DNA of 64,000 nt from positions 1-64,000 of IMG/VR virus record IMGVR_UViG_3300021088_000005. One strand, given 5' to 3'. Made by a program: the position numbers and the translations under genes. Under the pieces are notes generated by a model. That model ran no database searches, was not told the origin of the DNA, and worked only from the letters and a program-made list of their open reading frames with translations. Shown here in pieces: positions 56,241 through 58,145 of this stretch (within the stretch, counting starts at the first letter, position 1; each line of letters begins with the position of its first letter). This DNA comes from a virus.

Positions 56241-56768
56241 TCAGTCCTTTATTGCTCTTCGGCGCTGCTGCGCCAAAGACAAATTGTGTTTATGCTCTTC
56301 CGTAAAAACACGACCTTTTGCCTTTTCAGACATCAGTCTTTTTGTTTCTTCGGAGTGCTTCATGCCGAGGCGAGCTTTATTGCCCATCTTAGCGACGGAA
56401 ATCTTTTTGCAATGCTCATCAGACTTCACGTGCTCTGACATACGACGTTTGGTGTCTTCGGACAAACGGAAGCCTAACATCCCTCCGCCGCCGTCAGTTA
56501 GATTATACCCCTTTTCGGGGTTCCTCAAGTCTAAAAACTTAATTAATTCGCGTTCGTAGAAATCCATATCTTCTTTTGTTTTAACAAAAGCCAAGGTTTC
56601 TATCTCAAAATTATCTATGCCGTACTTCTGAATGGCATTATATAAATACGATGGTCTGCGGTGAGTGAATGGCTTTTGATGCCTCTTCCACCGTTTGTCT
56701 AGGCTTTGAGATGTTTGCCCAACATACTGCTTACCGTTAATTTTGTTTGTAACAATATAAATCTGCAT
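56241..56768 (-). CDS. GIY-YIG homing endonuclease with NUMOD3 motifs
   Basis: 175 residues from ATG 56768 (GAGGAG upstream; a start at 56822 would lie in the hairpin leader). GIY-YIG core: IYIVTNKINGKQYVGQT at 3-19, catalytic Arg in DKRWKRH, Glu in FYERELIKF, Asn in GYNLTDGG. C-terminal NUMOD3-type DNA-binding motifs LSEDTKRRMSE and HSEETKRLMSE. Lies directly after the intron-containing capsid gene, outside the intron, so it may promote homing of the intron or of itself. Confidence 0.85.
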   Translation of the reverse strand: MQIYIVTNKINGKQYVGQTSQSLDKRWKRHQKPFTHRRPSYLYNAIQKYGIDNFEIETLAFVKTKEDMDFYERELIKFLDLRNPEKGYNLTDGGGGMLGFRLSEDTKRRMSEHVKSDEHCKKISVAKMGNKARLGMKHSEETKRLMSEKAKGRVFTEEHKHNLSLAQQRRRAIKD

Positions 56769-56793
56769 TTTGTTCTCCTCAAAAGAACGGGTC

Positions 56794-56820
56794 GGGAGAT
56801 ATGTTTGAGGCATATCTCCC
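56794..56820 (-). promoter_or_regulatory. 10-bp hairpin in the endonuclease leader
   Basis: GGGAGATATG and CATATCTCCC are perfectly complementary around a seven-base loop. Lies between the predicted promoter and the ribosome site of the GIY-YIG gene. Could attenuate read-through from the capsid gene or control translation. Confidence 0.6.
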
Positions 56821-56826
56821 ACCCTA

Positions 56827-56856
56827 ATCCTAACACGGATGGCCGTCCGTTGTCAA
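56827..56856 (-). promoter_or_regulatory. possible promoter for the GIY-YIG gene
   Basis: Leftward TTGACA (56856-56851) and TAGGAT (56832-56827), spacer 18. The spacer holds the inverted repeat ACGGA...TCCGT. The only good promoter I see on the virion strand. Confidence 0.45.
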
Positions 56857-56863
56857 GAGTTAT

Positions 56864-56943
56864 TTACTGAATGGCCGGAACGCTGTCGATCCAACGCATT
56901 CTCTGCGTATTGGCCCCGCGTGCCGGAGGAAGTGATACTGTTT
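56864..56943 (-). CDS. major capsid protein, 3' exon
   Basis: Reading leftward, one frame gives TVSLPPARGANTQRMRW, then IDSVPAIQ and TAA (56866-56864). This looks like a capsid C-terminus and has no start codon of its own. It directly follows the group I intron. The exact 5' boundary is uncertain: candidate 3' splice sites follow a G near 56945 or near 56934. Confidence 0.65.
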
Positions 56944-57152
56944 GGTGGCAGTTTTGTTACCTCAATCTCTTGAGGGGTTAGTCATTTCTGCTAACCTCAC
57001 ACGGTTGTTATTCCCGTGTAGCTCAGACTATTGCATCACCCTGTCGGGTGTTCTCTCGCTTAGTCGTTCAGGCTACCTTTCGGCTTGCCCCTCGTTGGCA
57101 TTTCAGCGTTCGAGTCAATCAGAGAGAATTTTCTAACGATAGATTACGCTAT
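56944..57152 (-). other. group I intron in the major capsid gene
   Basis: Reading leftward: P1-like hairpin CGATAG/CTATCG (57154-57149 with 57142-57137); P3 CGCT/AGCG (57108-57105, 57060-57057); P5 GCC-GAAA-GGT (57084-57075); P7 GACTA/TAGTC (57065-57061, 57030-57026) in AACGACTAAG and AATAGTCTG contexts, the R and S elements; P8 CACCC/GGGTG; P9 CACGG/CCGTG; P9.1 GGTTAG/CTAACC; P9.2 CCTCAA-GAGA-TTGAGG. About 200 bases, no internal ORF. Boundaries are approximate. Confidence 0.8.
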
Positions 57153-58145
57153 CGCGAGTCCATTGTTAACGGATGTATCAAGTCCATTAACGTCAAACTT
57201 ATATGAGCACCAGCCCCCGATTGTTGCTGTCGGGTCGAAGCTGGACGGTGGTGCATTGTCCACAACCTTACAGTCAATCGTGCGCCAGTCGCCTTCACCT
57301 AGGTCCACGTCGCCCGGAACTTCCAACCATACGCCGATCAAAGCGTAGTTACCGAACACATAGGTTCGATAGCCGATCTTACTAGTTGACTGGTAGTTCG
57401 CGGTTGTGGTAACGAACGGAGTCTGACGTAGCACTATGTTCGTACCCGGAAGCTCGATGTCCATCTTCTGGTCTGCACCAGCGATCTTGTCGAACTTCTC
57501 GATGTTGCCAAGCTTCCACAAGTCAACGATTGAGTTGTTCACTGTCGTTGCGTTGAAGATGTCGCCTAGCACGTTCGGGGAAACTGCGCCCATGAACTTC
57601 CCGGCCTTGCAAGGAAGCACGTTCTTTGAAACTAGCTGCTGCTTCAACTCACGGATTGTGCCCAAATCGAGCGTGTACGGAGATGATAGCAAGCTGCTTT
57701 GGTTAACCTGGGTGTCTACAGAAGATGCGCCTGCTGCGTCAGCTACTGCGCTGTACAACTCAGAGATGCTCTGTCCTGCCTGGTAGCCTAGCTCGACTGC
57801 GCTGTTTCCAACTACGTCGTCTAGTGCGCTGGCAATAACAAAGGAACTGAAGTTGCTGTAATTGTTCCACTCACCCACCTGAGCAGGAGAACTGATCTGC
57901 CCGATGAATTCAGGTGAACCTACAACACCGTCTCCAACCTGGGTTGTGTCCCCGGTTAGGGTGTTGTACTGGAAGAACTGACGGTTGATACCAGCGTTCA
58001 ACGGCTGGACACGTCGTTCTGCCGCCGCCAAGAATGCATCTGTTTCTCCCTTTAGGTTCGGGATAAGTTCCTTATCGAACAAGATGCTCTGTGCGGTCAA
58101 TATATTTCCTACGTTTGCTGCTGATGGGGTTGGTGATCCAGCCAT
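57144..58145 (-). CDS. major capsid protein, 5' exon plus intron read-in (N4-gp56-like)
   Basis: 333 codons as an ORF. Position after portal and scaffold, and segments such as WNNYSNFSSFVIASALDD, AVELGYQAGQSI and MDIELPGTNIVLRQTPF, fit the N4-gp56-type capsid family. The stop at 57146-57144 falls inside the intron's P1 region, so the spliced protein should continue into the exon at 56864-56943. 43-base gap to the scaffold gene, with a small CCGC-GCAA-GCGG hairpin. Confidence 0.8.
   Translation of the reverse strand: MAGSPTPSAANVGNILTAQSILFDKELIPNLKGETDAFLAAAERRVQPLNAGINRQFFQYNTLTGDTTQVGDGVVGSPEFIGQISSPAQVGEWNNYSNFSSFVIASALDDVVGNSAVELGYQAGQSISELYSAVADAAGASSVDTQVNQSSLLSSPYTLDLGTIRELKQQLVSKNVLPCKAGKFMGAVSPNVLGDIFNATTVNNSIVDLWKLGNIEKFDKIAGADQKMDIELPGTNIVLRQTPFVTTTANYQSTSKIGYRTYVFGNYALIGVWLEVPGDVDLGEGDWRTIDCKVVDNAPPSSFDPTATIGGWCSYKFDVNGLDTSVNNGLAIA

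Follow-up and report, generated by a model that had tools for sequence, protein, structure and literature searches.

A compact group I intron in the major capsid gene of a soil phage and ssrA-like read-through tails in its intron family

Where does a phage capsid protein end when most of its relatives cease to match it shortly before its stop codon? This question is raised by a major capsid open reading frame (ORF) of 333 codons in the soil phage record IMGVR_UViG_3300021088_000005, of which positions 1–64,000 were analysed (the window); the whole record measures 100.8 kb. The ORF occupies 57144..58145 on the minus strand, which also carries all the other intron and capsid features described here. 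An IMG/VR search with the ORF found 124 capsid relatives, 80 of which were kept, and most of these match it only to about residue 317. On its 3′ side, a fragment without a start codon encodes (F)HQTVSLPPARGANTQRMRWIDSVPAIQ and then a stop codon (56864-56866). With high confidence, the locus as a whole is best explained by an ORF-less group I intron that would restore a capsid protein of 344 residues by splicing, that would have spread with the aid of an adjacent endonuclease, and whose translated read-through would serve as a degron in many relatives.

The junctions were placed by alignment with relatives that lack the intron. In 44 relatives the gene is uninterrupted and ends ...GGWCSYKF-HQTVTLPPATGxNTQRIRYIDSVPAIQ before the stop, and compared with these the window has exactly 247 nucleotides (nt) more, inserted after 950 nt of the capsid gene and 85 nt upstream of its 3′ end. 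Spliced alignment to the intron-less profile gives the junctions AAGTT/TGACG...AAACTG/CCACC (slashes mark the splice sites) and a predicted spliced product of 344 residues, to which exon 2 contributes 27 residues and one base of a split Phe codon. A preliminary description of this DNA had proposed a capsid gene split by a group I intron without an internal ORF, and both points hold, with the hallmarks of such introns present. It had taken the 333-codon ORF to be exon 1 only; exon 1 does end inside the ORF, but the final 16 codons (DVNGLDTSVNNGLAIA) are intron read-through and not capsid. The downstream fragment noted there is real but longer than described, and the predicted loss of about 25 C-terminal residues is in fact a loss of the 27 residues of exon 2. 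The alignment of intron-less relatives that it had suggested placed both junctions, and among relatives whose 3′ end is covered none was seen that ends at the same point and lacks the downstream fragment. Gene finders assign a false C-terminus to the capsid protein of the window.

Group I introns are defined by a U before the 5′ splice site, a terminal G, guide pairing at the 5′ splice site and a core of P3–P8 with P7. At every mapped junction of the family a U ends the exon and a G ends the intron. The insert in the window folds better than its shuffled versions (z = -4.0), and it contains the P3/P7/P8 pseudoknot together with the P4-P6 domain, P9, P9.1 and P9.2. In an alignment of 34 homologous introns, which share the helices P3-P9.1, RNAalifold proposed 38 pairs, 35 of them with at least one sequence changed on both sides; after P7 was added there were 43 pairs, with 98.7% of 1420 cells standard and two-sided changes in 36/43. 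The corresponding values were 79.7% and 21.8 pairs when columns were shuffled, and 32-42% and 10-15 pairs when the partners were slid by 1-3 columns. The two bases preceding GACTA (AC or GA) covary with the base following TAGTC (T or C). The exon end UAAGUU pairs with the guide GACUUG of the intron, with U.G at the splice site, while the P10 of the window is weak; across the family, guide and P10 fit best at their own site in 13/13 sites, with a total of 84.4 against a maximum of 59.2 in 2000 site permutations (0/2000 reach it). The earlier reading of P3, P4/P5, P7, P8, P9, P9.1 and P9.2 with GACTA/TAGTC is thus borne out by covariation for P3-P9.1 and by the sequence and fold of the window for P9.2. 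Its likeness to 'td-type' introns is supported by none of the tests made. IA group I introns carry P7.1/P7.2 between the 5′ strand of P7 and P3, and no helix was found at this place.

A covariance-model search, also suggested in the preliminary description, had a divided outcome. The Rfam model RF00028 matched neither the window intron nor two relatives at gathering or relaxed thresholds, which weighs against the group I assignment, but a model built from the intron cores of the family finds one match in the window (147 bits, E 1e-29), a single match in the whole 100.8-kb record (E ~2e-29) and 53 matches in the 80 relatives, all on the capsid strand. In fifteen contigs with other family members, RF00028 recognises four group I introns, all of them away from the family cores, and three contigs hold both family members and other introns that it recognises. 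Because RF00028 does find other introns in these three family-bearing contigs, its silence on the family is regarded as a limit of one library model; a match to it, which the window intron lacks, belongs to that library model and is not a defining property of group I introns. Judged from sequence and covariation, the insert is a group I intron, one that escapes Rfam, and from the same evidence we infer that it splices.

In the mechanism proposed for this locus, UAAGUU at the exon end of the pre-mRNA would pair with the internal guide, the minimal P3-P9.2 core would fold, and guanosine would serve as the splicing cofactor, so that AAGUU would be joined to CCACC and the full-length capsid protein recovered. 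Translation before splicing would instead add the 16 intron codons and yield a capsid protein that lacks the 27 residues of exon 2, and the -LAA/-LVA tails of many relatives would represent a selected ssrA-like degron that clears this truncated capsid. The spread of the intron would probably be aided by an adjacent free-standing homing endonuclease that would act on intron-less co-infecting phages, of the GIY-YIG type in the window and of Endonuclease VII or HNH types elsewhere, and by occasional jumps to new sites in the capsid gene with the guide refitted.

Table 1. Positions of the exons, intron elements and neighbouring features in the window
Feature	Position	Strand	Evidence
Exon 1, major capsid gene	57196..58145	-	950 nt, 316 codons + 2 nt; aligns with intron-less relatives to ..GGWCSYKF; PHROG 1357 major head protein, E 3e-5
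ORF-less group I intron (247 nt)	56949..57195	-	equals the excess over 44 intron-less relatives; preceded by T, ends in G; family model 147 bits on core
Exon 2: final base of the split Phe codon, then 27 codons HQTVSLPPARGANTQRMRWIDSVPAIQ and stop	56864..56948	-	same frame, near-identical peptide in intron-less relatives
Read-through tail of unspliced ORF, ..DVNGLDTSVNNGLAIA, stop TAA 57144-57146	57144..57195	-	49 nt; relatives end LAA, LVA or LTA at same place
Internal guide sequence GACTTG; forms P1 with TAAGTT at the exon end (57196-57201)	57179..57184	-	own-site pairing best, 13/13 sites
P2-like hairpin GCGATAGCGTAATCTATCGT, holds in-frame stop of unspliced reading	57136..57155	-	sequence and alignment
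P3 5′ strand TTCTCTC, pairs with 57051-57057	57122..57128	-	7/7 pairs with two-sided changes, 34 introns
P4-P5-P6 domain, approximate ends	57071..57114	-	helices 2-4 of covariation set
P7 5′ strand GACTA	57061..57065	-	33/34 introns; GACTG with matching partner in the other
P3 3′ strand GAGAGAA	57051..57057	-	covariation
P8 hairpin CACCCGACAGGGTG	57037..57050	-	4/4 pairs with two-sided changes
P7 3′ strand TAGTC	57026..57030	-	33/34 introns; one compensatory pair
P9 hairpin	56996..57021	-	helix 7 of covariation set
P9.1 hairpin	56976..56996	-	helix 8 of covariation set
P9.2 hairpin CCTCAAGAGATTGAGG	56960..56975	-	sequence; fold
Promoter-like TTGACA-18-TAGGAT before endonuclease	56827..56856	-	10/12 matches; 2 sites found in region vs 0.5 expected
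Free-standing GIY-YIG/NUMOD3 homing endonuclease	56241..56768	-	ATG 56768 after GAGGAG, longest ORF from 56822; PF01541 E 2e-11, PF07460 E 4e-10, PHROG 314 E 2e-37

The family occupies 14 insertion points in the capsid gene, which in spliced coordinates (1035 nt) are 68, 87, 92, 869, 921, 926, 934, 940, 943, 950, 954, 987, 1010 and 1020; the window intron sits at 950, and site 921 was read by hand from the relative L075. The middle 777 nt of the gene (75%) are free of sites, a gap that 0/200,000 random placements of 14 points leave. Two or three introns per capsid gene are found in L002, L005, L045, L064, L065, L067, L075 and L077. Introns at the same site tend to be kin, and close kin also occur at different sites: the introns nearest to that of the window stand at other sites and share 88% (L065, c225) and 85% (L047, c145) core identity with it, and an intron near the 5′ end of the gene in L071 is 88% identical to one near the 3′ end in L026 (n53 vs c148). 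On the capsid tree, the presence and absence of introns require at least 21 changes. Since closely related introns stand at different sites, their presence has changed so often and their guides are refitted, one family has settled repeatedly at new sites in the capsid gene, with guide and P10 adapted to each.

Beyond exon 2, about which the preliminary description is silent as regards an endonuclease, an ORF at 56241..56822 starts about 40 nt past the capsid stop, with its likely start at 56768; the resulting protein of 175 residues carries both a GIY-YIG domain and a NUMOD DNA-binding motif. In the relatives, about 70-140 nt separate the capsid stop from the following gene, or more than 400 nt where an endonuclease ORF is present. 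Three types occupy this slot, namely Endonuclease VII (30), GIY-YIG (14) and a third, HNH-like type (6), the last of which is also housed in large introns of the 5′ part of the capsid gene. An endonuclease-sized ORF lies beside 35/35 intron-bearing and 16/31 intron-less loci (p = 1e-6, kinship ignored), and this co-occurrence fits the collaborative homing known from other phages (PMC10448857, PMC3984707). The type of endonuclease also follows the intron site (p = 0.01, uncorrected), with Endonuclease VII at 11/12 loci with c148/c139 and GIY-YIG at 5/7 with c159. As separate observations, a perfect hairpin, GGGAGATATG-CCTCAAA-CATATCTCCC, is found at 56790-56825, past the promoter-like site and ahead of the start of the endonuclease, and a similar block of promoter and hairpin occurs at other endonuclease loci (L009, L017). 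An ORF with the pattern ..GRQFGRLTV..CxCG.. lies within capsid-gene introns of 758-839 nt that sit close to the 5′ end (L024:4268-4882, L049:4235-4804, L064:255-842), and its relatives are free-standing on the 3′ side of the capsid gene in L005, L014, L017, L018, L058 and L072, so that this endonuclease family is found both inside and outside introns.

These data can be read in other ways. The intron could be a degenerate remnant that no longer splices, with a capsid that truly ends ..NNGLAIA and exon 2 as dead sequence; the failure of Rfam to recognise it speaks for this, but the frame of exon 2 is open and its peptide near-identical to the one in which the 44 intron-less relatives end, and the core helices, P7 and guide pairing are all intact in the window, so that such a remnant is very improbable. 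As to the spread of the family, reverse splicing, with the abundant mRNA of the capsid gene as target and the endonucleases as bystanders, would account for the 88% core identity between n53 and c148, for the short exon ends CCT, CAT and GTT that several sites share, and for the concentration of the family in capsid genes of unrelated phages. This route is judged rather unlikely: core similarity is not significantly higher at sites that share exon ends (permutation p = 0.10), and the endonuclease association and the two clusters of sites fit homing at the DNA level. A somewhat better case can be made, still a doubtful one, that endonuclease and intron are unrelated and merely accumulate near capsid genes. 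Such ORFs do stand at about half of the intron-less loci, three unrelated endonuclease families use the one slot, and the association becomes borderline when relatedness is allowed for (~5:0 independent pairs, median p 0.06), which tells against a role in spread; against coincidence stand the ORF's presence at every intron-bearing locus and the agreement of endonuclease type with intron site, kinship being ignored in the latter.

The family is not confined to relatives of the window capsid. DNA patterns taken from the intron core, and therefore independent of the exons, retrieved many further viral contigs with family introns, often several per contig. When the flanking ORFs were scanned singly, 12/20 had a PHROG match, 10 of them to major head proteins (PHROG 1357, 283, 9953, 1328) and 2 to portals. 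At least three family introns each occur in L133, L115, L135, L084, L148 and L121, in capsid and neighbouring head genes.

The proposed fate of the unspliced product concerns the peptide read from the first bases of the intron. In the gene family of the window most tails stop within a few nt or run for 21-49 nt to LAA, LVA or LTA, and few end otherwise. C-terminal LAA and LVA are strong degrons of the ssrA type, recognised by ClpXP. The codon sets for LAA vary (CTA GCA GCG, CTG GCC GCT, CTC GCG GCG, TTA GCC GCT), and the splice site falls in varying phases. In the unrelated phages, where the longest upstream frame was taken as the in-frame ORF, 26/165 in-frame tails end LAA and 39/165 end [LIVM][AV]A, compared with 0/330 for either in the other two frames and with 10/1705 and 23/1705 in other genes; counted by core cluster, 13 of 72 clusters have LAA (p = 5e-16). 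An excess of in-frame LAA/LVA ends is thus joined by constraint at the protein level, as a pairwise comparison of the distinct LAA codon sets gives differences of 0.07, 0.00 and 0.71 at the first, second and third codon position. A longer likeness is found in P22-like capsid introns, which begin T AAC GTT GCA AAC GAT GAA AAG TTT GCA TTG GTG GCC TAA = NVANDEKFALVA, wholly intronic. Tails of the AND..FALVA form occur at five loci, with the variants ANDSSFALVA and ANDQSFALVA, and a pattern search of genomes shows that the tmRNA (transfer-messenger RNA) tags of Burkholderiales read ANDERFALAA or ANDETFALAA. Rhodoferax, a member of the Burkholderiales, has phages among the known relatives of the window capsid.

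It is fairly likely on these grounds that the compact phage group I introns of this family, found mostly in the genes of major capsid proteins, carry ssrA-like degrons in their first bases or in peripheral loops, by which capsid made from unspliced mRNA would be tagged in cis for proteolysis; such an intron would bring along a quality control of its own for the protein. Several results weigh against this. The tail of the window itself ends LAIA and does not conform to [LIVM][AV]A, so that its function as a degron is uncertain, and it may be a weakened version of the tag. Of the 3′-region introns in the gene family of the window, 11/28 stop at once without a tag, and tagged introns (counting LTA and the LAIA of the window) make up 16/28 in the 3′ region but 0/13 in the 5′ region. 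The idea that a degron is needed only for near-full-length truncations holds for this distribution but fails generally, as several tagged introns lie early in the gene in unrelated phages. Further, the mature capsid of the AND..FALVA lineage itself ends RIAA or RVAA. The tails could also be by-products of the conserved RNA hairpins P2, P5 and P6 and not selected peptides; in keeping with this, some tails ending AA (AKAA, AQAA, whose stop falls where the P7 motif begins) derive from the P6 strand GCAGCGUGA, and the Leu-Val codons of the ANDxxFALVA introns overlap guide and P10 bases. Such an origin of the tails is unlikely: those in LAA occur in frame only, tag-ending tails are spread over different parts of the intron (the 5′ leader, the P5 loop and positions on either side of P7), AND..FA resembles tmRNA tags, and differences are nearly confined to third codon positions, also where the stop lies in the P5 loop (0, 0 and 0.64 at positions 1, 2 and 3). 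Two copies of AATGGACT, 27 nt apart, were observed in the window intron at 57153-57188, the first including the guide sequence; the segment between them extends the read-through tail to 49 nt, exceeding every mapped relative.

It has been reported that in the mycobacteriophage LittleE the splicing of a capsid intron was demonstrated by reverse transcription PCR and protein sequencing (PMC3706429). As in the window, what is likely a group I intron with U/G junctions interrupts the gene of the major capsid protein, but the LittleE intron measures 819 nt, has an HNH gene inside and occupies one site only, close to where the mature protein begins, whereas that of the window measures 247 nt, is ORF-less and lies near the 3′ end. 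The lactococcal phage Tuc2009 likewise has a group I intron in its capsid gene (cited in PMC3706429), a likeness at the level of description. Collaborative homing, with an ORF-less group I intron beside a free-standing homing endonuclease, is known from cyanophage psbA, T3/T7-like phages and ICP1 terL (PMC10448857, PMC3984707); unlike in those pairs, three endonuclease families alternate in the slot of the window family, where intron and endonuclease are linked by co-occurrence. Jug phages each carry many small ORF-less group I introns of about 206 nt, mostly with stand-alone endonucleases, and their splicing has been seen in metatranscriptomes (PMC12363816). By description these resemble the window intron in size, lack of an ORF and stand-alone endonucleases, but the examples named are in terL, nrdD and polymerase genes, while that of the window is in the capsid gene. 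As for the tails, the ssrA/tmRNA tag ends -ALAA, and VANDEKFALVA and CANDQSFALVA of related introns match ANDERFALAA; the intron tails are encoded in cis, whereas the ssrA tag is added by tmRNA, and the LAIA of the window departs from it. Capsid introns and small ORF-less introns are thus already known, while many sites in one gene and read-through tags are not described in the literature searched.

With 14 sites used by one intron family, the capsid gene offers a natural experiment in site choice and site change among group I introns. If the tails are degrons, they would provide one answer to the question of how phages can afford introns in the protein that they produce most abundantly, where ribosomes arrive ahead of splicing. 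The same annotation error will affect many viral contigs, since family members also interrupt capsid genes that belong to several capsid families unrelated to one another. In GenBank, the phage Manatee Spring has a match to the core of the window intron at MW202674.1:16877-16993, just 5′ of the annotated P22-type coat gene and under a feature labelled 'hypothetical protein', which is probably an unannotated intron of the same family.
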